Assembly (NCBI GenBank): GCA_033032175.1
Contig: JAVKPJ010000072.1
Coordinates: 1-64,000 of the forward strand
Source of the DNA: Saturnia japonica
Taxonomy: Eukaryota; Arthropoda; Insecta; Lepidoptera; Saturniidae
Reading direction: 5' to 3'
Length of the DNA stretch: 64,000 nt
Part shown: positions 10,115-64,000 of the stretch, piece after piece
Layout of the letters: each line of letters starts with the position of its first letter
Numbering within the stretch: position 1 is the stretch's first letter
The notes under the pieces: generated by a model
Told to the model about the DNA's origin: nothing
Databases searched by the model: none
Seen by the model: only the letters and a program-made list of their open reading frames with translations
Made by a program: the position numbers and the translations under genes

Positions 10115-10116
10115 TA

Positions 10117-16803: not shown

Positions 16804-16887
16804 GTGGGGAAATCCTGCATGGATCCGCCTCCCGAGCCGGGCAGCTCGAGAGGGGTATGTCAGACTCTTACTGACTAAAACCCCACG
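16803..16887 (-). other. T5 3' cloverleaf
   Basis: Identical to the T2 structure. Confidence 0.8.
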
Positions 16888-20100: not shown

Positions 20101-20296
20101 GCGGGGAGCCGGCGGCGGGCCGGGAAATGATGGCCACCGAGCCATCTCGATTACCCGCCCAGTTATCTCGGGGCGGCACGAAGTATGGCTCGGCTATCAC
20201 GGCGACGCTGATTGACCACTGTGCCATGCTTTGGACTAGCAGGTCCTGCGCACTGGCACAGTGGTTTAGATTCGCTTGGAGGAGACGGATGGCCAT
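17131..20296 (-). pseudogene. T5 ORF2: endonuclease-RT, frameshifted
   Basis: Same sequence and same breaks as T2 ORF2; YADD at 18286-18297. ATG at 20296 overlaps the ORF1 stop (TAATG at 20294-20298). Confidence 0.9.
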
Positions 20297-20298
20297 TA
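20294..20298 (-). promoter_or_regulatory. T5 UAAUG stop-start
   Basis: Overlapping TAA and ATG as in T2. Confidence 0.85.
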
Positions 20299-22469
20299 CT
20301 GATTGACTTCATCCATCTCCTCCGTTTGGTTCGTCGACAGCGCTACCGGAGCAGCCGACGAGGCAAGGGGCTGTGCAGGGGCTTTTCCCCTCTTCCCCTT
20401 CCTTCTCTTCTTGGGTTGCGACGACGCAACGCATGTCTTGCCACCCACCGGTGCCCAGCTGGTTTACCCGCACCTGCACATATTAAGCAATGCGGGTCCA
20501 CTGTGCAGGCTGCCGCCTTATGGCCGGGTTGACTGCAGCGATAGCAGAGTGCACTGCAGTCAACTTCTGAGGAGCATTTTGCCCCCAGATGACCGGCCTG
20601 AAGGCAACGGAAACACCTTGTGAGCGGGGCTGCAAGACTTTTACTCGCGCCGACACCACACCCACCAATAGCTTACGGCCGTCGCCGAGTTTTTTGGCCA
20701 CCGTCACTGGGCACGAAACCACGGCCGTTCCAGCCCCATTAAAGCGGGCGAGGATCAGTTGCTTTAACGTGCTCTGGGGGCATTCCCCAGCACGTGCAAC
20801 GGCGGCAATTAGCTTCTCTACTGTAACGGAGTCATCTAGGCCTGAGATGCGCACGTCTGCACACCTCATAGGCCTGGTCACCCGAATGTCATCAGCTGGA
20901 AAGGACGCCCTAATTTTTTCTGCAAGGGCGTCTGCTTGCGGACCACTCGTGGCACCTGGAACCTCTAAGAGGGCAGCCCCTGTTGCTGCCCTTCTATAGT
21001 TGACGCCCTCTATGCCTAGAGCGCCAAGGTTGACTTGCTCCCATGTTTTCGTTAGCACCTCCCTGTAGGTGATGCCCCTCTTCGCAGCCTCAGGTTGAAG
21101 TGTTATAACCACCGCAGTGGATTTGGAGGTGCGAAGTTTGGGGGCTCTGTTCCTTTTTGGAGGTGCTTTTGTAGCCGCCTTTTTCTTATTCTTCTTCGTG
21201 GCCTTACCCCCCTTACCTACTAACACCCACTCTCCTTGAGTGGGTTTAGGAGTGGCCACCTTCTCGCTGTAGGAAGCACGAGGGGCAGGTGTAGTCGTCG
21301 ACTTGGGACCGGCTTTCCCTGCATTTTGACTGCTTTTCTTCTTAGCTGCTTGCCGGAATTCATGCTGCCGCGGAGGACCAGTTTCAGGTGCTACCACTTT
21401 TGCAGCTTGCGCAGCCTTTCTATCCGCCGCTAAAGGAGGACGGAGTTGTCTTTCAGGGAGGAGCCTATCCTCCAAGGCCTCGAAGCGAGCACTCATTATG
21501 TTGAGTATGCGCTCGAACTTCTGGTCAATGTCAGAATTCTCGCTCCGAGGCCTCCCTGGCAACGGCGGAAATTCCTCCCTCCTCCGTGGAGCTGGAGAAG
21601 TTGAAGGGCCCAGTCCTGTCCCTGTCGCTGTGACTAGAGAGACTTCAGCTCCTGGCGATGGCTGGCGGACTTTATTCAGGTCCACCCTCATTTCTGCGAG
21701 CTCCTTCCGGAGCTCTGCCAGCTCTTCCGATTGTTTGGCATTCGTCTCCTCCAGCCTTGCGTATGCTGCTTGGACCCTTGCCAACTCCTCTGTGGTGGTC
21801 CGACTGTAAAATTTCTCTACTGCGTCCTTAATAGACACAGCGGCATCCTTAAGGGCTTTTTTGGTATGTTCCCTTAAGATTTGATGATTTTTTGGCGACC
21901 TTGAGGATCACCTCAACGTCGCCCAGTATTCTTTCGTTCAATTGGAAGGAGAGTTCTTCCTCCGGAGCAGAGATGATCTCCTTTGCGGCCCTATTAAGCC
22001 GTGCCCGCGATGCTGCCTCTGCCACCTCCTCTTCGGCTGTAAGGCGGAGTAGCTCCTCTTTCTTGCGGATGTAATCTTCCTTCACCTTTGCCAACCCCAC
22101 ATATTCTCCTGTAGTTGGGGGCCGCCCCCTACCCTTTTTGGGGATAGAAACTGGCGTTTGCGTCTGGTCAGCACCCTCGACCTTCCTTTTCCGCCAGAAG
22201 CAGACTGGCGGAGCGTCCTCAGCGCCAGACAGAGGGTTCTCAGACGACCCTACCGTCACCATAGAGGCCTCACTGGACTCGCTACACACCGACAATCTGT
22301 CTAGTGAAGGGTCCTTACGATTAGCCACAACGGGGTTGAATTCCCCTTCGCGACCATCCACTTTTCTCGCCTCACACGTAACTCCACTAGTGGAGCCACC
22401 GTCCTCGTCATTCTTAAAACTAGGTTTATTTACAATATTTACAGAGTTTTGTTTTAAAAGTTGGCTCAT
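20296..22469 (-). pseudogene. T5 ORF1 (Gag), frameshifted
   Basis: Copy of T2 ORF1 with the same N-terminal and pre-knuckle frameshifts. The two long open blocks are 20483-21838 (coiled coil and Gag core) and 21849-22469 (N-terminus with the AT-hook-like motif). Confidence 0.88.
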
Positions 22470-22888
22470 TTTTGTTCCCACGATTGTGGGGGAAGTAACA
22501 GTCCACCCAGGCAGTGCCCCTGTGCCTGGGTAAGCCTAGCGTAACCCGTCAAGAGAGTCGGCCGGTTCTCTGACGGGGGTCGTCACTCGTGACTGGTCCC
22601 ACCAGCCAAGCATCCCTCGCGGTGCGCCGCCGCTTGGGATTAGGGTAATTTTTTATAGAGGTTTTCTTCCTCGCGGTCCAGGCGGTTAAGCCAAGACCCT
22701 CGGTCCCATACGAAGCCGCGAGACGTGACCACGACACTCCGATGGGATTACGAGATCGACGGTGGCAAGCCGGACAACGTGTCCAACCTGTCCGCCCGAC
22801 GGCAGTGTGAGCGCACGCCGAGCCCGCCAACAAGCCATGTCCTTCGTCAGCTCTGAGGAGCAGAGAGTCGATAAACGAGGCCCCCCCT

Positions 22889-22966
22889 GTCAGGTATTCG
22901 CCGTCGGCCGAGAAGCGGCCGCCGTTGCCCGGGATGCACCACGCGGAGGTTCCTGACTCGCACCCC
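22889..22966 (-). ncRNA. T5 HDV-like ribozyme
   Basis: Identical to the T2 ribozyme: P1 GGGGUGC/GCAUCCC, J4/2 GGCGAAU. Confidence 0.93.
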
Positions 22967-22973
22967 AACCTAA

Positions 22974-22975
<2 letters not shown>
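22967..22975. repeat. Telomeric repeat remnant between T5 and T6
   Basis: AACCTAACC, as at 6572-6580. Confidence 0.9.
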
Positions 22976-23028
<53 letters not shown>

Positions 23029-23113
23029 CGTGGGGAAATCCTGCATGGATCCGCCTCCCGAGCCGGGCAGCTCGAGAGGGGTATGTCAGACTCTTACTGA
23101 CTAAAACCCCACG
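23029..23113 (-). other. T6 3' cloverleaf
   Basis: A-type fold, identical to T3. Confidence 0.8.
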
Positions 23114-23351
23114 GTGTTCCTCTTTCCCATTTGGCCGGGGAGCAGGGACAGCTTCCGCATTACTTCTACTCGCCCGACGGGTGTAGGCCCCTCATAAGGG
23201 GCCACCTCTGCGGTCTGAGGGGTCGAGGTGTGTGACACCCTCCGACGAACCTACGAGGGGCGCATCGAACACTGATGCGCCACGCCTCGGGCCTGTGCAT
23301 TCGCTGCAAGGGCGAAGGACGTGCCCGCGTCCGACGCCCGCAGGCCGTTTT

Positions 23352-26300
23352 TTACGGCGGCAGGAGGTCATTCCTGACCCTGCGCCGCCGGGTTCGTCGA
23401 CCGCGGGAGGGGAGCTCTGACGTCTGCTCCCTCTCCCTCTCCGCCGCCTCCTTTGCGAGCATGACGTCCTCGCAGAATGAGGCGACGGAGTTCCACCCGC
23501 TCTCACTCTCGACCATGGATGAAACGACAGTCGGGAGCGAGAGATCGGGCCCTATAGCCGCGATAAGGTCACGGCGTGACGAGTCCCATGCGGGACAGGC
23601 GGCAAGTGTGTGCTGCGCGTTATCGACCGCGCAGCCACAATGATGGCACCCAGCTGTTGGCTCTCGGCCTATGCGACACAGGTAACTCCCGAAACATCCG
23701 TGTCCCGAGAGCACCTGCGTCAGCCGGAAGGTTAGGGTGCCGTGCCGCCTCCGTACCCATGCCGTCAAATGAGGCCTCACGGCCTGGATGGTCGTCACGC
23801 CGGCGCTGGGGTGCTCCAGTCGTCGGTCCCACTCCGCCATGACCAGGATCTGGTGGAGCTCTGTCCTACGCGCCTCGATCTCACGAGGCGCAGGTCGTCT
23901 TCCTCTCTCCAACGCCTCCCCGCGCCACCTGTAGAGCGACGCGAGGGCTTCCGCCTCCAGATCCCATGGCGGAGATCCGGCCAGTAGGGAGGCCGCCTCG
24001 AAGGAGATCGTGCGATATCCCCGGGCTGCTCTGACGGCCATCGCTCTCTGCGGTTTGCGCAGAGCGGCGATATTACGGGCCGCCAGGTTCTCAGCCCACA
24101 CCGGGGCCCCGTAAAGGGCCATGGACCGCACAATCCCCATGTAGAGCCTTCGGCAAGCGGAATTTGGACCCCCAGGTTGGGCAACAGCCGCGCTAACGCG
24201 GCCGCAGCGCCCATAAGACGGGGGGTCAGCTGCCTGAAGTGCTCTACAAAGCCCCATCGGCTATCCAGAACGAGTCCAAGATATTTCATATTGGACTGGA
24301 TGCCGATTGGGACGCCTCCCACGATGATCTGGGACCCTCTCGGTGGCGCATTCCGAGGCCCATGAAAACACAGAGCCTCAGATTTTTGCAGCGCCACGTT
24401 TAGTCCCAGACGCCCGATCCGACCGACGACGTGTGCCACCCCAGCGGTTGCCAATATCGCAGCTTCGCGGTGCGACTTAGCTCTCGACGTGACCAATGTG
24501 TCGTCGGCATAACATACGACACTGAGGCACGGAGGAGCGCACCGCGCAACACCCAGTCGTATCCGATGTTCCAGAGAAGAGGGCCCAAAACTGACCCTGG
24601 GGAACACCGGATACGACGTCTCGCTGACACATTCCACTCCGACCCGGGAAGACTACATACCTCTCGGAGAGGTACGCCCCGACTATGCGGCGGAGGTAGG
24701 ACGGCACTCCGTTGAAATCGGAGCGCCTCTCTAATTGTGGCCCAGGGCAAGGTGTTAAAAGCATTTGCGATGTCTAAGACACCGCTATCACCACCTCGCC
24801 CGAGCAATAGCCTCCTCCGCCAGACTCCTGACTTGCGCGATCGCATCAATCGTGGAGCGCCCTCTGCGGAAACCGAACTGGTTCGCCGCCAAATCCGGCC
24901 CCACGTGCGTTAAATGGCCGACGAGGCGGTTTGCAATCACCCTCTCGAAGAGTTTGCCACCTCGTCGAGCAGCACAATGGGGCGGTACGCGGACGGCGAG
25001 TCCGCCGGGCGCCCCGGCTTTTGGAGCAGGACTAGACGGCCGGTTTTCCACTTCAACGGAAACCGGCCCTGCTCCAGACACACGCTTAGGAGTCCCAATA
25101 GTCGGGGCTCGAGGACCTCTTTGGGCCAGGACCCACGCTCGACCAGGCAGGCGTCGGGCCCTGGGGCGGTGTTTTTGGCCGCGAGGCGTTTCACCGCCGC
25201 CCTCAATTCTTCCCGGGTCACGTCGGGCACGTCGTCTCGGTCCACGTCGGGCTCGGCCGCGGGCGGAGCCATGTGGGGAGGTGAAAACTCCTCCCTGGAG
25301 GGAAACAGAGCGCTCACCACCTCCTCGAGGAACTCTGACTGGAGACTCTGGGTTACCGGTGGGGCCCATTGGCGAAGTTTGCCACGTACCATCCTCCTGT
25401 ACGGACGGCCCCACGGATCCCGATTGAGCGTCTCCAGGAATTCCTCTCTGGCCAGAGCTTTTGCGCGCTCAATGGCCCGTCGGAGGGCGAGCTTAGCTGC
25501 TCTGTAACCCTCATGCAGCTCCGCCTCTCCGGGGCTTGCGACCTGCGAATGACGTCGTCTGCGCCTTATCCTGGTGTACTGGCGGCGCGCTGCTACGCAA
25601 AGTGCGCGCAGCTGCGCGATTTCAGCGTTCCACCAGTACACCTGGCGCTTAGCTGGACGACGCCCAACTCTCGGCATCGCCGCGTCACACATATGCGACA
25701 CGGCGGCTCGCAGTCGCTCCGCCCCATCTTCGACATCGGCAGGCCTCTCGGGTGTTCCATCCATCACCCAGGCTTGCACGATGGCGGCCTCGAGGAACAC
25801 CTCGCGATCGAGGCGTCCCAGAGCCCAACGTGGACTGTCCTCCTCAGGGCCTCTCGGGACCGGTCGTCCGAGGTCTGGGCGGACACTTCGAACTGTATGT
25901 AAAGATGATCCGAAAGTGTCTCTACCCCCTCCAGGACTCTCCAGTCCCGAACACGGCGTGCTATTGCAGGGCTTGCGAACGATATGTCCACTATGGATTC
26001 GCCCTGCGGTCGCACGCACGTGTTTATTGAGCCCCTGTTAAGGACGAGTAGGCTTGATGTTACGGCCCACTCTTCCAGCGCCTCACCCCTATTATCCGTG
26101 GATGGGGAACCCCAAGCCGTAGATTTGGCGTTGAAGTCCCCGAGGACTAGGATGGGGTGAGGGTGGCTACCCGAGACGACAGTGCCCAACTCCACCAAGA
26201 ATGCCTCAAATTCGGCGAGACTCCACCGAGGGGGTGCATACACCCCCACCACCACAACGTCGCCGAGACGCGCCGCCACGTATCCCTGACCCTCCTTGAT

Positions 26301-26504
26301 GTTAGCGAAGGGCGGGGAACCGGCGGCGGGTCGAGAAATAATGGCAACCGAGCCATCTCGATCTCCCGCCCAGTTATCTCGGGGCGGCACGAAGTATGGC
26401 TCTGCTATCACGGCGACGTTGATTGACCACTGTGCCATGCTTTGGACTAGCAGGTCCTGCGCACTGGCACAGTGGTTCATATTCCCTTGGAGGATATGAA
26501 TAGA
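23352..26504 (-). pseudogene. T6 ORF2: endonuclease-RT, start codon lost and frameshifted
   Basis: The endonuclease block is open from MNHCASAQDLL (26480) to 25764 and shows AEPYFVPP, the HPILVLGDFNAKS block and LSDHLYI. RT YADD is at 24500-24511. Where T3 has TAATAATG, T6 has lost one base (TAATAATTC), so the usual ATG is missing. Other indels are those of T3 ORF2. Confidence 0.9.
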
Positions 26505-26508
26505 ATTA

Positions 26509-28691
26509 TTAATTGGCTTCTTCCATCTCCTCCGTCTGGACCGTTGTCGGCGCTTTAGGAACAGCCGACGAGGTCAGGGGCTGTGTCGGGGCTTTTCCCC
26601 TCTTCCCCCTCCTTCTCTTCTTGGGTGGCGACGACGCAACGCATGTCTTGCCACCCACCCGGTGCCCAGCTGGTTTACCCGCACCGGCACATATTAAACA
26701 ATGCGGGTCCGCTGTGCAGCCTGCCGCCTTATGGCCGGGTTGACTGCAGCGATAGCAGAGTGCACTGCAGTCAACTTCTGAGGAGCATTTTGCCCCCAGT
26801 GACCGGCCTGAAGGCAACGGAAACACCTCTGTGAGCGGGGCTGCAAGACTTTTACTCGGCCGACACCCAACCCACCAATAGCTTACGGCCGTCGCCGAGT
26901 TTTTTGGCCACCGTCACTGGGCACGAAACCACGGCCGTTCCAGCCCCATTAAAGCTGGGGCGTGGATCAGTTGCCTTAACGTGCTCTGGGGGGCATTCCC
27001 CAGCACGTGCAACGGCGGCAATTAGCTTCTCCACTGTAACGGAGTCATCTAGGCCTGAGATGCGCACGTCTGCACACCTCATAGGCCTGGTCACCCGAAT
27101 GTCATCACCTGGGAAGGACGCCCTAATTTTTTCTGCAAGGGCGTCTGCTTGCGGACCACTCGTGGCACCTGGAACCTCTAAGAGGGCAGCCCCTGTTGCT
27201 GCCCTTCTATAGTTGACGCCCTCAATGCCTAGAGCGCCAAGGTCGACTTGCTCCCATGTTTTCGTTAGCACCTCCCTGTAGGTGATGCCCCTCTTCGCAG
27301 CCTCAGGTTGCAGTGTTATAACCACCGCAGTGGATTTGGAGGTGCGAAGTTTGGGGGCTCTGTTCCTTTTTGGAGGTGCTACTTTAGCCGCCTTTTTCAC
27401 CTTTTTCTTTGTGGCCTTACCCCCCTTGCCTACTAAAACCCATTCTCCCTCAGAAGGTTTGGGAGTGGCCACCTTCTCACTATAGGAGGGGCGATAGGCG
27501 GGTGCAGCTGAATTGGGCCCTGCTTTCCCTGTTTTCTGGTTACCTTTCTTCGCAACCACTTGCTGGGGACCAGGCTGCCGTGGAAGCCGAGTTTCCGGCA
27601 CTCTCGTTTTCGCCGTCTGCGTAACTTTCCTATCCGCTGCTAACGGAGGGGGAGTTGTTTTTCTGGTAGGAGTCTATCCTCCAAGGCCTCGAAGCGAGCA
27701 CTCATTATATTAAGTATACGCTCAAACTTCCCGTCAATGTCAGAACTCTCGCTCCGAGGCCTTCCTTGTTGCCGCTGAGGCAATGGCGGAAAATCCTCCC
27801 TCCCCCGTGGAGCTAAAGATGTTGAAGGGTCCGATCCCGTTTCCTTTGCAAAAGACTGAGGAGACTTCAACTCCTGGCGATGGCTGGCGAACCTTATTTA
27901 GGTCTACCCTCATTTCCGCGAGCTCCTTCCGGAGCTCTGCCAGTTCTTCCGCTTGTTTGGTGTTCGTTTCCTCTAGCCTTGCGTACGCTGCTTGGACCCT
28001 GGCCAACTCCTCGGTGGTGGTACGACTGCGGTATTGTTCCACTGCATCCTTAATAGACACAGCCGCATCCTTGAGGGCCTTCTGGAAAGTGCCCTTTAGG
28101 TTCGCCGATTTTTTGGCGACCTTGAGGATCACCTCCACGTCGCCCAGCACCCTTTCACTTAATTGGGAGGAGAGCTCTTCCTCCGGTGCAGTGGCAATCT
28201 CCTTAGCGGACCTGTTGTATCGTGCCCGCGATGCCTCCTCCGCCAACTCTTCTTCAGCTGTTAGGCGAAGCAACTCCTCTTTCTTCCGGATATAATCCTC
28301 CTTCACCTTTGCCAACCCCACATATTCTCCTGTAGTTGGGGGCCGCCCCCTACCCTTTTTGGGGATAGAAACTGGCGTTTGCGTCTGGTCAGCACCTTCG
28401 ACCTTCCTTTTCCGCCAGAAGGAGCTTGGCGGAGCATCCTCAGCGCCAGACAGAGGGTTCTCAGACGACCCTACCGTCACCATAGAGGCCTCACTTGACT
28501 CGCTACACACCGACAATCTGTCTAGTGAAGGGTCCCTTACGATAGCCACAACGGGGTTGAATTCCCCTTCTCGACCATCCACTTTTCTTTCCTCACACGT
28601 AACTCCACTAGTGGAGCCACCGTCCTCGTCTTTCTTAAAACTAGGTTTATTTTTAAAAATTTACAGAGGTTTTTTTAAAAGGTTTGCTCAT
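26509..28691 (-). pseudogene. T6 ORF1 (Gag), frameshifted
   Basis: Most readable family A Gag. Blocks: MSKPFKKTSVN start (28691); acidic region; KKGRGRPPTTGEYVGLAKVK (about 28340); an unbroken coiled coil with SNLKGTFQKALKDAAVSIKDAVEQYRSRT; RFEALEDRLLPEKQL; Gag core (26852-27601); and the knuckles CYRCSQPGHKAAGC and CLICAGAGKPAGHRVGGKTC (26509-26826). Frame breaks fall near 28600, 27650-27850 and 26840, mostly in homopolymers. Confidence 0.88.
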
Positions 28692-37909: not shown

Positions 37910-38009
37910 NNNNNNNNNNNNNNNNNNNNNNNNNNNNNNNNNNNNNNNNNNNNNNNNNNNNNNNNNNNNNNNNNNNNNNNNNNNNNNNNNNNNNNNNNNN
38001 NNNNNNNNN
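37910..38009. other. Assembly gap (100 N)
   Basis: A round 100-base N run. The sequence to its right (38010-38369) repeats 37166-37526, so the two contig ends fall in similar elements. The gap must hide at least the 5' part of T8 and the 3' part of T9; its true size is unknown. Confidence 0.97.
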
Positions 38010-38383: not shown

Positions 38384-38403
38384 TTTTTTTTTTTTTTTTT
38401 TCA

Positions 38404-38489
38404 GTTTGGGAAAACCCATCATGGGTACCCGCCCGCCGCGGAGGACAGCAGACGGGTTATGTGGGACTGTACCCACTAAAAACCCAAAC
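38404..38489 (-). other. N2 3' cloverleaf
   Basis: Same N-type fold as N1: closing stem GUUUGGG/CCCAAAC, arm 1 GUGGG/CCCAC. Confidence 0.78.
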
Positions 38490-38630
38490 ATCGCCTCCGG
38501 AGCGCTTGGCGTCGGGGGCACAGGAATCGCTTGCGCATTACCTCTGTGCCCACCGACAAGCGCTGCCCCCCCGAAGAGAGGCTCTCCCCACTGGGACGCC
38601 CATCACCGACCGCAGCCCCAGCCTCCGTTC

Positions 38631-38872
38631 AATTTTTTCACGAGGTTTTATTCCTCGGTGATTTTTTAAGGAGATTTTCTTCCTCCGGGTTCAGGCCCAC
38701 ACGTCCACCAGAACCCGACGCCTGGTGATTTTTTAACGAGGTTGTCTTCCTCGGTGATTTTTTAACGAGGTTTTCTTCCTCCAGGCTCCGGCCCCGCAGG
38801 ACCAGAACCCCGCCCTTGTGATTTTTTAAAGAGGTTGTCTTCCTCTCAATTTTTTAGCGAGGTTTTCTTCCT
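38631..38872 (-). repeat. N2 array of six GAGG...CCTC hairpin units
   Basis: Units of roughly 28 bp, sense GAGGAAGANAACCTCGTTAA then AAAATCAC, partly separated by 30 to 50-bp GC-rich spacers. Two units present here are missing in N1, so copy number varies. Confidence 0.75.
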
Positions 38873-39266
38873 CACGGTCGCAGAGGACAGGGAGAGCGGC
38901 ACAACGAAACACCGACACGCCTCTTCCCCTGCGACCCCACCGCGTCCGCCATCTTTTAGCGACGGTGGCGACCCCGTCGAGGCCGCGGAAGGTAGGGTGA
39001 GCGGCACAACGAAACACCGACACACCTCTCCCGCCGCGGCCTGTCTCCTTCAGCCGCGGTGCCTCCCATACGACACCGCGGCTCGCCTCAGCGGCGGTGG
39101 CGCCCATACACCACCGCAACCTACTGTTGGCCGCTTCATCCGGGCTCAAACGCCAAAAGCCCTGACTAGCAGCCTCGCCTGTGGGTTCCTCTTGGCTTCA
39201 CCGTGGGGGACCAAGTCACGGTTACTAAGCCCCCCCGCCACGACAAGGCGGGAACCCTCCGGGGGG

Positions 39267-45477: not shown

Positions 45478-45490
45478 GGGGGGAACCTAA

Positions 45491-45492
<2 letters not shown>
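45478..45492. repeat. C6 tract plus telomeric remnant between T10 and T11
   Basis: GGGGGG on the plus strand (C6 in the sense strand) and AACCTAACC, then the T11 poly(A). Confidence 0.85.
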
Positions 45493-45545
<53 letters not shown>

Positions 45546-45546
<1 letters not shown>

Positions 45547-45626
45547 GTGGAGAAACCCTTCATGGGTACACACCCGCCCGGGGGGACGAGTGGTTATGTG
45601 AGACTCCTACTCACTAAAACTCCACG
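45546..45626 (-). other. T11 3' cloverleaf (C type)
   Basis: Closing stem CGUGGAG/CUCCACG (one pair compensated relative to A), arm 1 GUGAG/CUCAC with loop UAGGAGU, arm 2 about 8 bp, arm 3 ACCC/GGGU. Confidence 0.8.
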
Positions 45627-45855
45627 GTGTACCATCGGCCGCCATAGTGGGACGCCGCGGGCAATGCGGTTGCAATCGGCCGCGACGCCCCGGCAGCCGG
45701 CCCAAGTCGGGCCCCGGCGCTAAAGAGAGACAGTCTGGTACAACCCCAACTGTCTCCCAGACGGCTGAACCAGTGCAATGGGAAGACGAGCCCCCCGACC
45801 CGTCTCCCCTTGGTTCAGCTAGAGCAGAGGAAGGAGGCAAAAGCGCCCCCCCTTT
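45627..45855 (-). other. T11 3' UTR
   Basis: Non-coding. It contains a GAGACAGU/ACUGUCUC stem (about 45725-45758) that corresponds, with compensated pairs, to the 11-bp stem in T15 at 59084-59116. Confidence 0.6.
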
Positions 45856-47988
45856 CTACCCAACGTCTACGCTAACCTCTGCTGAGGTATTTGGCATCGG
45901 CGGTGCCTTGCCCTTAGTGGTCGGCGGCCTGCAGCTAGCTCCTCCCATTTGATGCCCAGCCGGTCTCCCGGCATCGGCACATACGGCGCAGTGGTGCTTT
46001 TCAGCGCACTGCAGCGCCTTGTGGCCGGGCAGCCCACATCGGAAGCACAGGGCCCCGCGGTCAACTGTCGACGGGCAGAGTGGGCGAGTGTGGCCCACAC
46101 CCATGCACCTGAAACAGCGCATGGGCCCACCTTCCAGGAGGCGCACACGAGCCGCACTCCACCCGACAAGGAGGCGACCTGCCTCAACCAACACCTTCGC
46201 AGCCGCGACGGGGAGCGAGAGGTGCACTGCACCTGTGCCTCTGCCATAGGCCCGTATGGCTCCAGCCCTAATTAGGGGTTTCTCACAGCCGGTCTTAGCA
46301 GCCACAACTGCCACAACCTCTTCCACCGACACTGAGTCGTCCAACCCAATAACGCGAACGTCCGCCCTTTTAACCGGCCTGGCGATGGTAGCCTCGCCCA
46401 CCAACACCGTCTGTAGGATTTCGGCTATCCGGTCCGCCTGTTCCGGGCCACGGGAGCCCCGGATCTCCACAATCCTGGATCCCGTAGCTGTGGCCCTAGT
46501 GGATATATTCTCGATACCGAGATCCGCCAACACAACTTGGTCCCGAGCCTTTAAGAGAGCTTCGCTATAGCTCAGTCCCCTCGCCAAGGCCTCTGGCTGC
46601 AGTGTAATAAGCACTGCAGCTGAGCGCGGTGTCGAGGGGAGCTTTGCCTTAGGCTTATGCCCAGGTGCCCTCCCAACAGGTACGGGAGCTACTCCCACAG
46701 AAGGCCTCGGTACGGTGGAGAGCTTCTCCCTTCTTCTTCGGCGGCGACGGGACACAGCAGTCCATCCGTCAGCGTTCGCGTCAGTTGTGGCTGGCACATG
46801 CGCATCAGCGCCGCGCACGGCCCACTCCATACTCATACCCAGGGGCTCCTGAGGATGGCTACCAGAAGACCTACCCTCCGCACGTGGTGCAGGGGTGCGA
46901 GCCGCAGCCCCCGGCACCATTGGTTTGCGGCTCAAAGCTGTAGTACCCACTGGTCTAGGGACAGTGGCACCACCCAACTTCTTATCGGCAGCCAGAGGGG
47001 GGCGAACCACTGGGGCGGGGAGGAGACGGTCCTCCAGGGCCTCAATTTGGGCGGTCACTACCTCCCCCATCGTGACGCGGAGGAACCGCTCCATCGTCCC
47101 CATATGGGTCCCCATAGCTTCTACCAATGCTTGCACGAGGGATTCCTGCACAGGTGCCGGTGCTGGTGGCAACGGTGGCGCAGGTAGAGTCTCCCCCGAT
47201 TACGGAACGAGGCAAGCTCCGCCTTGAGTTCTTCAACCTCCCGACGGAGCCTCCCCGTCTCGCGCCGCAGAAGGAGGGTCTCCTCCGCCACCGTACGCGT
47301 GAGAGCTGTGGCAGTGACCTCATGGAGGATCCACGCCGCCTCCTTCAGGTTTTTTTACAAATGTACCCTTGAGGTTGCCAGATTTCTTGGCAACCTCAAG
47401 GATCGTGTCTACTTTCTCCTTTGCGAGGGCCCTCAACGTATCAGGATCGAGGAGCTCGATACCTTCGAGCACTCCCACATCTGCGACGGCAACCGCCTCT
47501 TCAGTGCAGGCCAGTTCAGAAGCAGGACACTTTGCCCTATCTGCCTCAACTACTGCCGCTGCACGTGGCACCCCAGCAGAGGAGCCTAGGATACGGGCTT
47601 TACCCCTCTGGGCCGTCGTCACCTTGCTGGGGGCCACCCCGTCCGCACCAGACTTGTCGCCATGCGACCGCTTCCTATCAGCGACAGTCACTGATGATAA
47701 GCTGTCAGAGCTCCCTGCCCAATGTCGGACAGAGAACCGGTCCAGCGAAACATCCCGCACAAGCCGTACCGATGGTTGTTCGGAGTCCAGTCTTAGTTTT
47801 TCCACGGTCGTCGTTTTATTGCTAGTATCGGTTATCCCAGTTCTTGCCAAAGTCGTTGTGATTTTACCAGTCTTGTGCAAATCTTTGCCCCCCCCAGAAA
47901 ACGTGGGGCAGCCCGAGCTTTGCTCGGAGAGGGATTCTCCCTTGCGGGTACCCTCCTGGGGTAGTTTCTTTTTAAGGTTTGCTTCCAT
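45856..47988 (-). pseudogene. T11 ORF1 (Gag), two frameshifts
   Basis: Begins MEANLKKKLPQEGT at 47988 with one LPQEGT/FSGGGK module. Then follow a C-type N-terminus (TTAQRGKARILGSSAG stands where A and B have the AT-hook-like motif), SGNLKGTF, a coiled coil, IEALEDRLLPAPVVRPPLAADKK, the core SAAVLITLQPEALARGLSY and RADVRVIGLDDSVSVEEV, and three intact knuckles CFRCMGVGHTRPLC, CFRCGLPGHKALQC and CAVCADAGRPAGHQMGGASC. Frame changes near 47345 (a T7 run) and 47190 are both of the homopolymer type, so the living gene may be intact. Length is about 710 codons, similar to the ORF1 of complete elements. Confidence 0.87.
47890..47935 (-). other. T11 LPQEGT-module hairpin
   Basis: Inside the coding sequence: stem CCGAGC/GCUCGG with loop AAA (47913-47927), followed by GCCCC...GGGGC. 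One of six copies of this covarying hairpin in the window. Confidence 0.7.
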
Positions 47989-48224
47989 CTTCACTGCTCT
48001 ACCCGTCAGTTTGCGGTACGCCTGCCGGGATCGGTATGACAACAACCGATCCCGCCAGCCGCTGTCCGGAACTGGGCCCTTGGGGCTCAAACTGAGCCCT
48101 CATCGGCCCCAGCCCGATACTGGGTGCGCCGCGCACATACCACACCCAGGAGCTTTTAACGGCCCTCCAGCCAGCACTCCTCCATAGTCCCCTCTGATAA
48201 GCAGAGGGATACCAGAAGGAGCGC
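47989..48224 (-). other. T11 5' UTR (B-like)
   Basis: Resembles the T7 and T13 5' UTR (tgagccctcatcggcccca, cccaggagcttttaacggc), but is linked to an A-type ribozyme at its upstream end through a short cctctgataagcagagg stem. Confidence 0.65.
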
Positions 48225-48301
48225 GTCAGATATTAGCCGCCGACCAACGTGGTCGACGTTGCCCGGGGTGCACCACGAGGAGGTTTCTGACATCGCACCC
48301 C
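48225..48301 (-). ncRNA. T11 HDV-like ribozyme with covaried P1, P2 and P4
   Basis: P1 GGGGUGC/GCACCCC (the G-U pair of T2 replaced by G-C), P2 GUCAGA/UCUGAC (G-C replaced by A-U), P4 GACCA/UGGUC (two pairs changed on both sides), L3 UCCUCGU, J1.1/4 GGGCAAC and J4/2 GGCUAAU. All three helices vary in a compensated way, which is strong evidence for the fold. Confidence 0.94.
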
Positions 48302-48337
48302 GGGGGGAACCTAACCTAACCTAACCTAACCTAACCC
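48302..48337. repeat. C6 tract plus five telomeric repeats between T11 and T12
   Basis: GGGGGG, then the longest telomeric tract in the window (about five CCTAA units, the last with an extra C). Confidence 0.92.
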
Positions 48338-48363
48338 TTTTTTTTTTTTTTTTTTTTTTTTTA

Positions 48364-48444
48364 CGTGGAGAAACCCGTCATGGGTACACACTCGCCCGGG
48401 GGGACGAGTGGTTATGTGAGACTCCTACTCACTAAAACTCCACG
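48364..48444 (-). other. T12 3' cloverleaf
   Basis: C-type fold. In arm 2 a G-U pair of T11 is a U-A pair here (CACUCG/CGAGUG). Confidence 0.8.
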
Positions 48445-48732
48445 GTGTACCATCGGCCGCCATAGTGGGGCGCGCGGGCACTGCGGTTGCAATCGGCCGC
48501 GACGCCCCGGCGGCCGGCCCCAGTCGGGCCCCGGCGCTAAAGGGAGACAGTCTGGTACAACCCCAACTGTCTCCCAGACGGCTGAACCAGTGCAATGGGA
48601 AGACGGGCCCCCCGACCCGTCTCCCCTTGGTCCAGCAAGGACAGAGGAGAGAGGCCTGTAAACCCCCCACCTACTGCCCAACGTCTACGCTAATGTCCAG
48701 CGGAGGACTCAGCACTGGCTGAACCCGCCCTT

Positions 48733-50509
48733 TTACGGGAGGTGGCCGACAGCTGACGCCCCCCATGTAATGGCCTGCTGGCCTCCCGCTATCGGCACAG
48801 TAGGCGCAATGAAGCGCCTCAGCCTCACACTCTTGCGCTCTGTGACCCGGCTTCCCGCACCGGAAACACAGCCCCCCCCATCAACCGTCGATGGGCAAGT
48901 AGGCCGCGTATGACCCAAGCCCAAACACCTGAAGCACCTCAGAGGCTTTTGCTCCAGGAGATGGACTCGGGCCGAACTCCATCCTACCAGGAGGCGTCCC
49001 CCCTCAACGAGTACTTTCGCCGCGGTGACAGGGAGGGACATATGGACTCTTCCCAAGGTTCTCCCCGAGGTCTGGATTTCCCCTACCCTAATTTCATCTG
49101 TCGCGCACCCTCCCTTGGTCGCGACAGCTGCCACCACCTCTTCCTTCGACACCGAGTCATCCAGGCCAACGATGCGGACGTCCACACGCTTCATTGGCCT
49201 GCCTATAGTGGCCACGCCCTCTAATGCCGTCCGGAGGCAATGTGCCAACTTATCGGCCTGTGTCGCACCTTGGGCTCCGGGGATCTCAATGACCCTGGCG
49301 CCCGTAGCGGTCTCTCTGACCGATAAATCCTCGATGCCCAGGGCGGGCAAGTCAGACGCCAATCGTGCCCTCAGAAAGGCCTCCTTGTAGCTCACCCCCT
49401 GAGCCACTGCCTCAGGCTGCAGCGTTATAAGCACTGCAGCTGAGCGTGGGGGCGAGGGGAGCTTAGGCTTCGGCTTTTGCCCAGGCGTACCCTTCTGGAG
49501 AGCAGGAGCAACCGGCGCAGCCACCGCTGGCACCGAATGTATCGCCACCTTCTTCTTCTTTTTGCGACGAGCCACAACCGTGGTCCACGCCGCATCGGAA
49601 TCCGTCGGTTGCCGGAAGGCGTGCCCATTCCATACCCAGGACAGGCACTTGAGAGGACGCCGTCAGCCCGGCATCGCAGAGCGAAGGCATCGCGCGAGGC
49701 ACAGGCTTGGGACCTGAAGTCTTTGTTCCAGTGGTGCTGGCAGCCGTCGGTCTCTTGTCTGCGGCCAAAGGAGGACGAGGACGAGTCACTGGGACTAAGC
49801 GGTCCTCTAACACCACCAGGCGGGCGTTCATCTCACCAAAAGACTTCTGAAATGTACGCTCCAGGCCCTGGATAGCAACCGCTATGGACTCCTGCCCCTG
49901 AGGCCCTGACAGAGACTCAGGAGATGGTGGAGGAACCTCCTTTCTCGCGTCGGCCTCCTGACGCATATCCAGAATCTCTGCCTTAACCTGCACGAGCTCT
50001 CGGCGGAGCCTCGATATCATGCGCCGAAGGCAAAGCGTCTCCTCGGTCACAGTGCGTGTCAACGCCGTGGACACAATCTCTTGTAGGACACTGGCCGATC
50101 CCTTCAGGTCTTTAATAGACGTCCCTTTTAGATTGCCAGACTTCTTGCAGACGTCGTATATCTTGGCAATCTTTTCGCCAGCCAGAGCTCTTAGCATATC
50201 GGGGTCAAGGGTTTCGATGGCCTGTTCCTCCTCAACCCAGAGCTCCTCACTAGCTCCCTTCTCCTCATCAACCTCTGGCCCTTTCCAGGAAGCTGCATCG
50301 CCAGTATCTGCATGCCTCTGACCCGCCGAAGACCCTGGGTCATGTGCCCTACCCCTCTGGGCCGTTGTTACTTTCGGGGCTATTACTGGATCTAATGTAA
50401 GCGGTTCCCCTACCCGCTTTAGACCCCCCGCACTTCCCTCGTCACTCACCACATTTCCACGACATTCCTTAAACCTAAGTGTTAAAATTTTTGGGTTAGT
50501 TTCACTCAT
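48733..50509 (-). pseudogene. T12 ORF1 (Gag), frameshifted
   Basis: Begins MSETNPKILTLRF at 50509, with no LPQEGT module. Order: TTAQRGRAHDPGSSAG, SGNLKGTSIKDLKGSA, a coiled coil (LRRMISRLRRELVQVKAEILDMRQEA), RLVVLEDRLVP, PRPPLAADKRPT, the core SAAVLITLQPEAVAQGVSYKEA and RVDVRIVGLDDSVSKEEV, CFRCLGLGHTRPTC, then a second knuckle knocked out of frame by a small indel near 48880. A frame change near 49570 joins blocks 49463-50509 and 48733-49575. A third knuckle is damaged. Confidence 0.86.
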
Positions 50510-50929
50510 TGTTGTTCCCACGAAAGTGGGGGAAGAGAAGGTCCACCCAGGCAGTGCCCCCTGTGCCTGGGTAAGCCTAACGTAACCCGTCAGAGAGTCG
50601 GCCGGTTCTCTGACGGGGGTCGCACTCGTGACTGGACTCCCCCCAGCCACGCATCCCCTCGTGGTGCGCCGCCACTTGGGATTGGGGTGATTTTTTATAG
50701 AGGTTTTCTTCCTCGCGGTCCGGGCGGTGAAGCCGAGGCCCTCGGTCCCATCGAAGCCGCGAGACATGACCACGACACTTCGATGGGATTACGAGAATGA
50801 CGGAGGCAGTGAGAAAAGCCCCACTTACCTGCCCGACGGCAGGTTAGTGCTCGCCGGGCCCGCCATCGCCCCGTCCAGTCACTCCCTCTGCTAATCAGAG
50901 GGATGTAACGACGGAGGAAGAAACCCCAG
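50510..50929 (-). other. T12 5' UTR (A type)
   Basis: Same hairpin chain as T2: GAGG..CCTC near 50698-50713, CCGTCAGAGA stem, CCCAGGC stem, and CCCAC-TTTC-GTGGG just before the ORF1 start. Confidence 0.65.

Positions 50930-50988
<59 letters not shown>
50930..50988 (+). repeat. 59-base poly(A) inside the T12 5' UTR, opposite strand
   Basis: An A run on the plus strand, so a U run in the T12 RNA, placed between the ribozyme 3' end and the rest of the 5' UTR. No other copy has it. It has the length of a retrotransposon tail, but no element body adjoins it. Confidence 0.9.
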
Positions 50989-50992
<4 letters not shown>

Positions 50993-50999
50993 CCCCCCT

Positions 51000-51077
51000 G
51001 TCAGGTATTCGCCGCCGACCGTGAAGCGGTCGACGTTGCCCGGGACACACCACGCGGAGGTTCCTGACTCGTGCCCC
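51000..51077 (-). ncRNA. T12 HDV-like ribozyme
   Basis: P1 GGGGCAC/GUGUCCC as in T10, P2 GUCAGG/CCUGAC, and P4 GACCG/CGGUC (one compensated pair relative to T2 and T10). J4/2 GGCGAAU. The 5' junction is TT|GGGG. Confidence 0.93.
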
Positions 51078-58866: not shown

Positions 58867-58900
<34 letters not shown>

Positions 58901-58901
<1 letters not shown>

Positions 58902-58981
58902 GTGGAGAAACCCATCATGGGTACACACCCGCCCGGGGGGACGAGTGGTTATGTGAGACTCCTACTCACTAAAACTCCACG
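58901..58981 (-). other. T15 3' cloverleaf
   Basis: C-type: closing stem CGUGGAG/CUCCACG, arm 1 GUGAG/CUCAC, arm 3 ACCC/GGGU. Same fold as T11 and T12. Confidence 0.8.
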
Positions 58982-59083
58982 GTGTACCATCCGCCGCCAT
59001 ACTGGGGCGACGCGGGCACTGCGCTGGCATTCTGCCGCGCCGCCCCGGCGGCCGGCCCGGCTAAACCGGGCCCCGGCCTAAAT

Positions 59084-59116
59084 AGGAGACGGCTCAGTAC
59101 ACCCTAGCCGTCTCCT
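59084..59116 (-). other. T15 3' UTR 11-bp hairpin
   Basis: Perfect stem AGGAGACGGCU/AGCCGUCUCCU with an 11-base loop. T11 and T12 keep the stem as GAGACAGU/ACUGUCUC, changed on both sides. Confidence 0.65.
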
Positions 59117-59176
59117 CCGTCCGCCGAGCCTGTGCAATGAGAAGACGGGCCCCCCGACCCGTCTCCTCTGGCTCGG

Positions 59177-62100
59177 CTAGGGTGGCGGGAGTTGGCGAAT
59201 GAACCGCCTCCTCCTGCCACCCGTTCTTCTTTGTCGGAGAGGGCCGCTCAGGGGATCCCCCTCGCGTGCCCTCTCCGCAGCCTCCTTCTGCGAGATGACT
59301 TCCTCGCAGAAGGAGGCCATCGCCTTCCATGCATTCTCGCTGCCGAGCATGGCTCTCACCACACTCGGCAGCGAGAGGTCTCCTCCAACAGCTACGGCCA
59401 GAGTGCGGCGCTGCCCCACCCACGCAGCACACTCGGAGAGAGTGTGCTGCGCCGTGTCTTCTGCAGCCCCGCACTCGTGGCACGTAGTGTTCGGTTCCCT
59501 CCTGGCAATCTTGTGCAGGTACCATCCGAAACAACCATGTCCGGATAGCACCTGCACAAGTCTAAAGCTCAGGGAGCCATGCTCCCTGGCGCACCAATCC
59601 CGGAGGACCGGGCGGACGGCGTCTATGGTATAACGCCCATAGCGCGCGTCCGCCAGGTCCTCCTCCCATCTCCTAGTGACCTCCTCCCGGGCCTCCCGCC
59701 GGACCCTGTCTACCTCTGTGGGAGCTGGAAGCTCCCCCAACGCTCTCCTCGCCGCCGTGAATTTGTACACGGCGGCGAGCACCTCCGCCTCCAGCTCCCA
59801 CGGCGGGGAGCCGGCAAGAACCATGGCCGCCCCCGCGGACACCGACCGGTACCCGCGGATGACCCTGAGCGCCACGACACGCTGCGTAGCACGCAACACG
59901 CGTCTGTTCGTGGCGCTAAGGGCATCCGACCAGATCGGTGCCCCGTAGACGGCCATGCTCCTCACTACTCCGGCAAACAAGCGGCGACAGCTCGCGCCCG
60001 GCCCTCCCGAATTCGGAAGAAGCCTGCCGAGAGCCGCCGCCGCTCCCACTATCCGCGGTTCGAGCCCCTTAAAGTGGGACTCGAACCGCCAGCGTCCGTC
60101 CAGGATGAGGCCCAGATATTTCATCTGGGCCCCAACCCGGACCCTCACCCCCTCTACATTTATGTGGGCCCCAGGAGGCGGCCCACACCGAGGCCCATGA
60201 AAGAGTATGGCCTCGGTCTTCTCGGCCGCCACCCTGAGGCCCAACGCCTTTATGCGCCCGACCACGAGGGCAGTGCCCTCTGTGGCCAGGCGCGCCACCT
60301 CTTCAAAGGTCCCCCCCTGGGCCACGACTAGGGTGTCGTCCGCGTAGCAAAGCACCCGAATCCCCGAAGGGAGCGCTACGCGGAGCACCCAGTCGTAGCC
60401 CATGTTCCACAGGAGCGGCCCCAAACACCGACCCCTGTGGAACACCGCACCCCACGTGCCGCCGAACCACATTGCCCCTCCCGTCCGTGAAGGCGACCTC
60501 CCTGCCCTGGAGGTAGTCCCCCAACAGCCGCCGCAGGTACGAGGGCACTCCGAAAAACCTGAGCGCCTCCCGTATAACACCATGCGGCAGACTGTTGAAG
60601 GCGTTGGCGATGTCGATCGACACCGCCAACAACCTACCTCCCCCCTCGGCCGCCTCCGCAGACCACTCCTTCAGGGTGGAGAGGGCGTCCAACGTTGAAC
60701 GCCCTCTCCGGAAACCGAACTGCCGATCTGATAGCACCGGCCCAACTTCCGCCATGTGCCGGACGACACGAGACGCCAGAATACGCTCCAGCATCTTCCC
60801 CGTGTCGTCCAGCAACACAAGGGGCCGGTACGAGGACGGGCAGTCCGGGGGGCGACCCTCCTTCCCGAGAAGGCAAAGTCGCCCCATCTTCCAGAGCTTC
60901 GGGAACCGTCCAACCGACAGACATCGGTTGAACAGCTCCCGAAGCTCTCCCCCCATGTGGTCCAGCGCCACACTTAACAGCCGGCCCGGAACCCCGTCAG
61001 GGCCTGGCGCCCTCCGCTTGTTGCGGAGGCGCTCCACCACCGACCCCATCTCCTCCTCAGTGACAGGGGGGGGTGGCAAACAGTTCCTCCGCAACAGCAC
61101 TCCCATCTGACATGGGAGGCGGGAGGAGCTCCGGAGCGTCGGGCAGCAACGTGGCCACGACCCTCCCCAGGACCTCTGAGTCTAGGGAGTCGGTTAAAGG
61201 GGGCGCCTGCCCCCGGAACTTCTTCCGGGCTACCCGGTACGGGCGCCCCCATGGGTCCCTGTCTAGAGTCCTAAGGAGCTCCTCCCACTGCTCATCCTTT
61301 GCCCGGCTGATGGCCACCTGCAGAGACTTCCTGGCTTCCCTGTAGAGGCCAAGCAGCTGGGCCTCCTCCCCCTCTGCATGAGTTTGCCGCCGGCGGCAGC
61401 GTTGAAGCCGCCGACGCGCCGCGGAGCAGGCCCCCGGAGCTCGGCAATCTCCGGGGTCCACCAATACACCGCCCGCCTGTTTTGCGGGCGGTTGTTGCCC
61501 CGTGGCATCGACGCGTCGCAGACCGCCGTAAGGGCCTTACGGAAACGGCCCGCGATCGCGTCGATCTCTTCTTCACTAGGAGCCGGCGCGCGCCAGCTCT
61601 GGACGATGGCCGCCTCTTCAGCAAGTTGCCGATTGAGGCGGCTCACCACCCATCGGGGGAACATAACCCCCCCCAGAGCCTGGCGCGCCGGCACCCTCTG
61701 AGGAGGTGGAGACCCCCAAACCGGATATACCGGTGGTCTGACCAAGGTCTCCACCTCCTCCAGCACCCTCCAATCCTGCACACGGCGTGCGACAGATGGC
61801 GTGGCGAAGGAGACGTCCACCACGGACCCTCCGTTCTGTCGCACGCACGTGTGCACCGCCCCTCGGTTGAGGAGGGACAGCCCAGCTTGGACTGCCCACT
61901 CCTCCACCACTGCCCCTCTTGGGTCCGTGGCCACCCCTCCCCATGCCCGTGACTTGGCGTTAAGGTCGCCAAGCAGGACGATGGGAAGTGGTGACAGCCG
62001 CCTAACCACCGGCCCCGGGAGTCGAGAAACGACTCGAACTCCCTCAGAGGCCGGTTTTGGGGAGAAGTACACACCTACTACCCCGTACCCTCCCCAGGCG

Positions 62101-62334
62101 GCCGCCACGAAACCCTGACCCCCTCTCCTTGATGGAGAGGGGGGACCCCGTACTATAGATAGCTACGGAGCCGTCAAGGTCACCCGCCCAATAAGGTTGG
62201 GCGGGGACACAGTACGGCTCCGCAGCCACTGCGACATTAATGCTCCACTCCGCCACTGATTGCACAAATAGGTCTTGTGCAGTGGCGGAGTGGTTCAAAT
62301 TCGACTGGAGGTAGCTGGTACGATTGTGCTGCAT
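59177..62334 (-). pseudogene. T15 ORF2: endonuclease-RT, frameshifted
   Basis: ATG at 62334 (MQHNRTSYLQSNLNHSATAQDLFVQS). The endonuclease shows AEPYCVPAQPYWAGD, IVLLGDLNAKSRAWG (L for the usual F) and a damaged SDH region. The RT shows SYRPLVLLDDTGKMLERI, FGFRRGRSTLDALSTL, VSIDIANAFNSLPH, GVPQGSV, then a frame change, and YADD (60335-60346). The C-terminus has CHECGAAEDTAQHTLSECAAW (CCHC). Breaks fall near 62100, 61700, 61400, 61070 and 60450. TAA is at 59177. Confidence 0.89.
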
Positions 62335-62336
62335 TA
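62332..62336 (-). promoter_or_regulatory. T15 UAAUG stop-start
   Basis: ORF1 TAA and ORF2 ATG overlap by one base, so family C uses the same coupling as family A. Confidence 0.83.
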
Positions 62337-64000
62337 CTGGGTCGTACCAACTACCTCTGACCTAGGCCTAACCAGGCGAGCCCCAGGGGGCCTCCTCTTG
62401 GCAGAGGGGGGCTTGCAGTTTGCCCCCCCCATATAGTGGTCCGCTGAAACGCCAGCGGCGGCACATTACATCGCAATGCAGTTTGATTGCTGCACACTCG
62501 GCCGCCGCATGGCCGGACCCCCCCGCACCTGTAGCACAGAGCGCTCCTGTCCCTCCATCGCCACACACGTTGGGCGAGTGTGGCCCAGGCCCATACATTT
62601 GAAACACCGCATGGGTTTCTCCTGCAGGGATGGACCCGGGCCACACTCCATCCAATCAGGAGGCGCCCCATCTCTACCAGTTTTCTGGCCTCAGCCACGG
62701 GGAGTGATATCTTGACCACTCCCCCCCTCCAATCTTGCCGGATGGGGCCAACCTTCACCATGGAAGGCTCACATCCGGTCTTAGCGGCCACAGTGCAGAC
62801 CACCTCCATCTGGTCGATCGTTCATCGAGGCCAGTGAGCCGAAGCTCCGCACGCTTAATCGGTCTGGCGACAACAGCCACCCCTTCAAGCACTGACGTGA
62901 GCTGTGCAGCCAGACCCATCGCCTTGATCTCGCTCTCGGAGCCAGGTATCTCAATTAACCTGGCTCCTGTAGCCGTCGTGCGGAGCTTCAGCTCTTCTAT
63001 CCCTAGGTCCGCCAACTTGACCGCTTCCCGCGCCTTTAGCACCGCAGCCGAGTAAGTCACCCCCTTCGCCACAGCCTCCGGCTGCAGCGTTAGAAGTACC
63101 GCAGCCGAGCGTGGCACAGAGGGCAACTTCGGCCCAGCCTTCTTTTTCGCCGCAGGAGTGGCTGCAGGCTTGGACGCAGATGCAGGCGCAGCTGGGGCCT
63201 TCTTCTTTTTTGGGCCCGCCGCGTTACAGTCACCCAGGTTTCTTCTCCTGCCTCAGAAGGAGCCTGGGAACTGGTGATGCCCGGGAGCGCAGCCCACTCC
63301 ACGCCCAGCGGCGTCGGTGTCGGAGGTGGAGATGGCCCCGATGTGTCCGCCCTACTGGAACCAACCTTCAAAACCGATCGGGGCCGTTTGGCCACCACCG
63401 ACTTAGACCCCGCACCAGGGCCAGCAAGTCTGGAGGGCCCAGGTGCATCATCAGACCTGGTTTCCTCGCCACGCCTTTTTATCGCCCGCTAACGGGTGGG
63501 CGGATGATCTTTTTGGGAAGGAGGCGGCCATCCACCTCCAGGCTGTCAAACCTTGCGTCCAACACCTTCCCCATCGTGGAGTGGATGGCCTGAATCGACC
63601 CTTCCAACCCTCCCCAATGCTTCCGCCAGCGCCTTCTCCCATCCTCGGGAAGGCACCTCATCCTGCACCGGTTGAGGAGGAGGTGGAGGAGGCCGCATGA
63701 TCTGCCTTGCTCCGGCTTCCCGTCGCCACGCGAGGACCTCTTTCTTGAGGTCTTCGACTTGCTGCCGGAGCACCCTCGGTCTCTCTCCCAAGACGAGCCG
63801 TCTCTCCACTCACGGTGCGCTCCATGAGCGCATCGACCACCTCCTTAAGCTCCTTTGCCGCACCCTTGAGGGCTTTGATAGCGGATCCCTTCAAATTCCC
63901 CGAGGTGCGACAAACCTCCAGGATCGTGCCCACACCACCCTCCGTGCGGGACTTCAGCGCCTCCGCGTCAAGGTTCTCCACACTAATGCACCCCTCAGGG
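62334..64000 (-). pseudogene. T15 ORF1 (Gag), partial and frameshifted
   Basis: The N-terminus is beyond the right edge. Visible: SGNLKGSAIKALKGAAKELKEVVDALMERTVSGETARL (63800-63900), PSVPRSAAVLLTLQPEAVAKGVTYSAA with the Gag core RAELRLTGLDERST (62755-63126), CFKCMGLGHTRPTC (about 62605), a second knuckle split by indels, and a C-terminus leading to CAG TAA. Blocks are broken near 63500, 63130, 62820 and 62560. Confidence 0.85.

Follow-up and report, generated by a model that had tools for sequence, protein, structure and literature searches.

The best-known telomeric element that encodes Gag and no polymerase is HeT-A of Drosophila, where telomerase is gone and the origin of the element is unclear. 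HeT-A draws its reverse transcriptase (RT) from elsewhere, and TAHRE is described as its RT-bearing relative with a similar Gag and conserved non-coding parts (PMC5537684). The mode proposed for HeT-A is nick-free attachment to chromosome ends, in a species that lacks canonical telomeric repeats (PMC4700185, PMC5537684). In the TTAGG-targeting SART1Bm, the cut site is reported as TT/AGG, and its proteins insert foreign RNA carrying the SART1 3′ untranslated region (UTR) in trans (PMC7265360). Here we describe two Gag-only elements, T11 and T12, from the moth Saturnia japonica. They lie in a window of 64,000 nt (positions 1–64000 of contig C72, JAVKPJ010000072.1, assembly GCA_033032175.1), together with an RT-bearing relative, T15. 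T11 and T12 are very probably non-autonomous, Gag-encoding telomeric elements of the SART type, in the R1 group of the non-long-terminal-repeat class, mobilised in trans through a shared 3′ cloverleaf. We regard them as derivatives rather than full SART members because the second open reading frame (ORF2), with endonuclease and RT, is absent.

In the window, minus-strand elements follow one another head to tail, with short AACCT stretches between them. T11 (45493–48301, minus strand, as are all elements and their parts below) has at its 3′ end a poly(A) tail (45493–45543, T51 on the plus strand) and a terminal cloverleaf (45545–45628); the junction between ORF1 and the 3′ UTR lies at 45796–45862, ORF1 at 45856–47988 and a ribozyme of the hepatitis delta virus (HDV) type at the 5′ end (48224–48301; RF02682, 44.2 bits with a gathering score of 44). 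T12 (48338–51077) has the same organization: poly(A) at 48338–48362, cloverleaf at 48363–48446, ORF1 at 48671–50509 and an HDV-like ribozyme at 50999–51077 (37 bits, under the Rfam gathering score of 44). Each element is 2.7–2.8 kb long. The original prediction held that both are complete at the two ends and contain ORF1 only, and the positions, poly(A), cloverleaf and ribozyme all agree with it, the T12 ribozyme at its sub-gathering score. A tblastn search with the ORF2 pieces of the window as queries detected nothing homologous to endonuclease or RT in T11 or T12.

T11 is flanked on both sides by a 15 bp target-site duplication, GGTTAGGTTCCCCCC (3′-end copy 45478–45492, 5′-end copy 48302–48316). 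Since this duplication takes in the opening bases of an element that was there before, the arrays evidently grow by nested insertion. We had considered non-templated C tracts at the 5′ junctions and rejected them; the CCCCCC at the T11 junction is the target-site duplication of the 5′ end of the older element in which T11 is nested. For the window copy of T12 a script found no exact target-site duplication; the T12 copy on contig C32 does have one, made of TTAGG repeats. ORF1 is broken by two 1-base indels in the window copy of T11, and likewise in that of T12. The C32 copy of T11 is 99.9% identical and has an intact ORF1 of 710 codons, so the T11 breaks are private to the window copy or are assembly errors. 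In the C32 copy of T12, ORF1 is still interrupted.

The genome search (580 Mb, 402 contigs) returned 20 T11 rows (at least 2750 of 2764 bp, 98–100% identity, plus partial rows) and 19 T12 rows (at least 2587 of 2715 bp, 93–100%), with four more near-complete T12 matches at 85–86%. These counts include the window rows and likely haplotype duplicates, and for T11, T12 and T15 ORF2 they are lower bounds, because 27, 40 and 48 candidates, respectively, were scored. ORF2-bearing copies of T11 and T12 had been named as an observation that would refute the original prediction; none of the 39 near-complete rows (20 and 19) has room for ORF2. Among the 20 T11 copies read, 18 begin at the first ribozyme base, all have poly(A), and 10 have the full 710-codon ORF1. 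When three T11 pairs with the same flanks were collapsed (T11 itself and the copies on C247 and C50 being dropped as second copies), 17 insertions were left, nine of them with the 710-codon ORF1 intact. T11 and T12 are members of a larger mobile clade.

Insertion in the TTAGG repeats occurs at TT^AGG, with the sense strand on the TTAGG strand; at the junction GGTTAGG comes after the poly(A), into which the first base of AGG is merged. In a few copies the target is another AGGT-containing site. Among 39 element rows in which the start of the ribozyme could be recognised, 22 have exact duplications of at least 14 bp; five of these are Gag-only copies at non-repeat sites (loci L014, L017, L018, L023 and L035), where clear target-site duplications of 14–16 bp are seen. 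Insertions of the T11 and T12 families are also present in chromosome interiors, at 12.998 Mb (L017) and 17.058 Mb (L035) of C1 and at 7.207 Mb (L023) of C7, all with 14–16 bp duplications at AGG-containing sites. HDV-like ribozyme matches at the gathering score number eight, in six of 11 loci; the 5′ ribozyme is predicted to trim the transcript by self-cleavage.

The rates of substitution show Gag of the Gag-only elements to be under purifying selection. Over 11 Gag-only lineages omega (dN/dS, the ratio of non-synonymous to synonymous rates) is 0.186, with a log-likelihood of −7133.6 versus −7550.9 at omega 1. As dS exceeds 1 between many of the lineage pairs, closer pairs were also taken: T12 and L035, L026 and L024, and T11 and another L024 element (dS < 0.8) give omega of 0.16–0.34 with bootstrap upper limits of at most 0.40. 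Three further Gag pairs, with dS > 1, give 0.15–0.30. Within the 17 T11 insertions, the shared changes comprise seven synonymous, four non-synonymous and no stops (omega ∼0.2, P 0.01–0.03); in the 20 copies before collapsing, 19 shared changes are synonymous and 15 non-synonymous, and the singletons are 24 and 35 with two stops. Neutral dN/dS in all ORF1-only copies, another result named as refuting the original prediction, was thus not seen.

The three CCHC knuckles retain all 12 of their CCHC residues in each of the 13 Gag-only rows compared; the Pfam zf-CCHC match on T11 is below the cut-off. The AlphaFold model of a 447-residue piece of T11 Gag (mean predicted local distance difference test, pLDDT, 78; predicted template modelling score, pTM, 0.55) shows a coiled coil and two folds like the RNA recognition motif (RRM), with the knuckles coming after this piece, and the top Foldseek matches of the model are tandem RRMs (E 3e-5, at a low TM of 0.2–0.4). 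T11 ORF1 accordingly resembles a SART-type Gag, with predicted RRMs and three CCHC knuckles. Named relatives of this Gag are all lepidopteran among the 120 matches listed of 212. In SART1 ORF1 all three knuckles are reported to be used in RNA packaging (PMC4120745).

The eleven Gag-only lineages compared are diverged from one another and have one junction motif in common, GCGTAGACGKTRGGYDGNA, seen in T11 where ORF1 meets the 3′ UTR. Besides T11, five of them have single ORF1 frames of 685–738 codons. The window and loci L011–L032 contain 46 segments with more than 1500 nt of gag, of which 38 show the motif of the Gag-only junction, with gag not followed by ORF2, and eight have ORF2 there; the loci were picked by T11 hits and duplicates were kept, so 38 versus 8 is not a frequency. 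One of the 38 (L014:7267–10000) is a chimera in which a gag of the E8 type and the beginning of ORF2 are joined to a Gag-only 3′ end, which suggests template switching. Between the gag stop and the 3′ UTR, at the place of the T11 junction, four of seven lineages tested align with the last ∼15 ORF2 codons of T15 (P ≤ 0.001). The post-gag stretch of T11, T12 and L024 aligns in turn with that of these four. Thus the expectation that no ORF2 sequence is left holds for T11 and T12 in so far as none is recognisable on its own there, but in four relatives the last ∼15 codons survive. Given the common junction motif and the remnant codons in four of seven lineages, one ancestral deletion of ORF2 is the likely, though not proven, source of the Gag-only lineages. 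The original prediction saw a maintained state and not one chance deletion: maintenance is borne out by dN/dS far below 1, but the common junction makes a single ancestral deletion the likelier origin.

A tree of the conserved part of Gag, built from 18 Gag-only rows (including X_L024, with its 3′ side unread) and 14 autonomous elements, sets the Gag-only set apart from the 14 autonomous Gags (Shimodaira–Hasegawa-like approximate likelihood ratio test, SH-aLRT, 77; ultrafast bootstrap, UFBoot, 85). The T15-type autonomous Gags cluster beside the Gag-only set (98/100). The approximately unbiased test rejects a tree in which the autonomous C4 Gag falls among the Gag-only ones (p-AU 0.014). In the sequences fetched, a set assembled without a genome search by Gag protein, a Gag of the T11 or T12 type never occurs in an autonomous element.

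The majority of the Gag-only elements compared are composed of an A-type-like ribozyme, a leader and gag start like those of T15, E14 and E8, a gag of their own and a T15-type 3′ UTR. T12 is built differently at its 5′ end: its 5′ UTR and ORF1 start (50505–50865) are homologous to those of the A-type autonomous elements at ∼87% identity, and the other Gag-only lineages compared differ there. T12 has thus acquired the entire 5′ part of an A-type element. Its 5′ UTR also has, just after the ribozyme, a 59-base poly(T) in the sense direction (50930–50988), a tract of 30–61 bases in all five T12-family copies read and present also in the ∼85% relative at L035.

T15 (58867–64000, cloverleaf at 58900–58983) reaches the end of the window; the complete copy, on C32 (locus L031), is 5972 bp long and has gag, an ORF2 with one frame break and a 3′ UTR as in the Gag-only elements. 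Its ORF2 contains an APE-type endonuclease and RT. T15 had been described as having the same Gag type and 3′ UTR together with ORF2. The 3′ UTR (82–86% identity between Gag-only elements and T15), ORF2 and the kind of Gag are as described, but T15 Gag is only ∼48% identical to T11 Gag (649 codons) and belongs to a different clade. T15-type ORF2 has no internal stop in 43 of 48 scored matches (query included, duplicates kept); an open frame of 1051–1062 codons is found in 32 of the 43. The ORF1 stop and the ORF2 start overlap as TAATG in six of six partner copies read (five and T15), which we take to be a SART1 trait. Gag sequence is present in all five stretches read upstream of ORF2 copies, one copy being cut inside gag. 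An ORF2-only class of partner, raised by L026, was rejected: L026 is a 5′-truncated element, and the five other ORF2 copies have gag upstream. Of the 120 relatives of the partner RT listed, most are unnamed; those named are mostly lepidopteran, with some R1DM-like ones from ants and bees and one filed as bacterial.

The 3′ cloverleaf was compared in eight sequences representing four 3′ UTR types. Paired cells make up 98.4%, and both sides have changed in 11 of 23 pairs; four of five measures lie above all 500 shuffles, and the fifth, the number of pair types, above 489 of 500. By this covariation the cloverleaf is a real structure kept by compensatory changes. By analogy with SART1Bm, the T15-type ORF2 protein may be the helper that moves Gag-only RNAs via the cloverleaf.

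Several other features of the arrays were noted. Elements of ∼0.8 kb with a cloverleaf type of their own, and without gag or ORF2 homology, lie at 13102–13887 and 38384–39266 of the window; they form a SINE-like telomeric family also present in L015, L020 and L031. Positions 1–10307 and 16396–26699 form a near-perfect direct duplication (99.96% identity, copies 16.4 kb apart); a breakpoint falls within an element, and the duplication could be an assembly artefact. A gap of 100 Ns lies at 37910–38009. At the right ends of C4 and C7 (L013, L026) the arrays read AACCT on the plus strand, the reverse of the expected telomere orientation, perhaps through mis-oriented scaffolding. Ten Rfam mir-3389 matches on the plus strand (1945–60458) were rejected, as they score below the gathering threshold and lie inside RT-homologous stretches.

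We propose the following scheme. ORF2 was probably lost once. The lineage afterwards diversified into at least 11 Gag types, retained a Gag under purifying selection and continued to insert with precise 5′ ends. The HDV-like ribozyme would trim the 5′ end of the transcript, and the element's own Gag would package this transcript preferentially in cis, which would be the reason that Gag stays selected. A T15-type ORF2 protein would bind the common 3′ cloverleaf in trans and nick the TTAGG repeats at TT^AGG, and target-primed reverse transcription would copy the RNA, giving rise to the 14–16 bp duplications.

A number of observations weigh against this scheme or loosen parts of it. Shorter or no exact duplications are seen in 17 of the 39 element rows, and duplications inside TTAGG repeats are ambiguous in length. 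Singleton changes in T11 are less constrained than shared ones (36 synonymous, 46 non-synonymous, two stops; omega ∼0.5), as expected if many of them post-date insertion. The preference of Gag for its own RNA is suggested because Gag stays selected without RT in cis, and is thus deduced from selection only. The ORF2 remnant is unrecognisable in T11, T12 and L024 taken alone (P 0.84, 0.20 and 0.52), the L024 query having run into the 3′ UTR. Monophyly of the Gag-only set has moderate support; a tree that groups T12 with the T15-type Gags is compatible with the data (p-AU 0.27), and the reverse grouping falls just short of rejection (p-AU 0.052). The helper could instead be some other ORF2 that goes with a similar cloverleaf.

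Of the other explanations, the Gag-only copies could be recurrent, short-lived derivatives of autonomous elements, produced by splicing, template switching or deletion at a weak spot, with a selection signal inherited from their parents. Two origins would fit the Gag tree (p-AU 0.27), 5′ modules have been swapped between lineages, as in T12, the L014:7267–10000 chimera is a possible product of such events, and HAL1 is reported to have arisen several times from L1 (PMC5753468). Yet all 37 non-chimeric segments without ORF2 after gag have one and the same junction motif, the Gags of these elements stand apart from the 14 autonomous ones with the C4 Gag kept out (p-AU 0.014), and an autonomous T11- or T12-type Gag is missing from the sequences fetched (again, a set made without a Gag-protein search); we therefore consider recurrent origin improbable. 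To about the same degree we doubt that Gag is kept for the host or for the autonomous partner, through telomere capping or supply of Gag in trans, the elements being HeT-A-like mutualists. HeT-A Gag is reported to work at Drosophila telomeres (PMC4700185, PMC5537684), and the Gag-only elements are diverse and sit in telomeric arrays; however, selection on many separate mobile lineages, recent spread and the interior insertions at L017, L023 and L035 are what selfish packaging in cis predicts. That T11 and T12 are defunct remnants of a deletion, or lost ORF2 through assembly collapse, would agree with the interrupted ORF1 of both window copies and with the near-perfect 16.4 kb duplication and the gap nearby. 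Collapse is implausible because the ORF1-only structure recurs in many separately flanked copies, and this whole explanation, to which we leave hardly any probability, is already refuted by the many copies that repeat this structure between flanks of their own and with target-site duplications, and by the intact ORF1 in 10 of 20 T11 copies.

Mobilisation of a Gag-only clade in trans, the explanation we prefer, may be part of a wider picture: a second tier of telomere elements, old and self-sustaining, in an insect with TTAGG repeats, in which one deletion founded a radiation, so that a guild with separately evolved Gags, dependent on ORF2 protein in trans and packaging in cis, makes up much of the arrays. 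We give this picture an even chance of being right. A diverse Gag-only clade in a TTAGG insect, whose RT-bearing sister, deletion junction and numerous young insertions can still be recognised, suggests that RT can be lost before the telomere repeats are. How such a division of labour arises becomes testable. A helper and donor assay exists for SART1. The clade also raises the question of why a Gag without RT in cis stays selected, to which packaging acting in cis is the likeliest answer. A literature search, mainly of open-access papers, found no description of Gag-only elements in TTAGG or SART groups.

Among known systems, SART1Bm is alike in its TT^AGG target, poly(A), two-ORF organization (that of the partner here) and use of the 3′ UTR in trans, as described in PMC7265360. 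It differs in being autonomous, whereas the Gag-only clade lacks ORF2 and has a 5′ HDV-like ribozyme. HAL1 is described as a non-autonomous LINE derivative with ORF1p only, and as having several independent origins, a point of difference (PMC5753468). The T11/T12 clade shows the HAL1-like trait of a lost ORF2 and a kept ORF1 in copies that were mobilised. To our knowledge HAL1 is not telomere-specific and has no obligatory 3′ UTR structure. MoTeR2 of the blast fungus, found beside MoTeR1, is an RT-less telomeric element with both ends common to the RT-bearing one, and its description mentions no Gag (PMC7367193). Drosophila R2 and R2/R1 SIDEs, too, derive from internal deletion and have a ribozyme at the 5′ end and a 3′ end that the RT recognises, and the hybrid ones have 14 bp duplications (PMC3414825). 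They differ in being made up of ribozyme and 3′-terminal sequences, without Gag.

The likeness to HeT-A, drawn from published descriptions, lies in a Gag-only telomeric element without pol beside an RT-bearing relative that has a similar Gag and shared UTRs, T15 taking the place of TAHRE. By the same analogy the Gag-only elements may have a role at telomeres. The HeT-A-like division of labour first suggested for this locus stands as far as a Gag-only clade with an RT-bearing relative is concerned, but insertion is apparently target-primed, into TTAGG repeats and with 14–16 bp duplications, instead of nick-free end attachment. The 5′ ribozyme, the lepidopteran Gag relatives and the coexistence of at least 11 Gag-only lineages set the clade further apart from HeT-A. 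If the picture of a second tier is true, the HeT-A/TAHRE arrangement would have arisen a second time, independently, on top of telomerase-type repeats.

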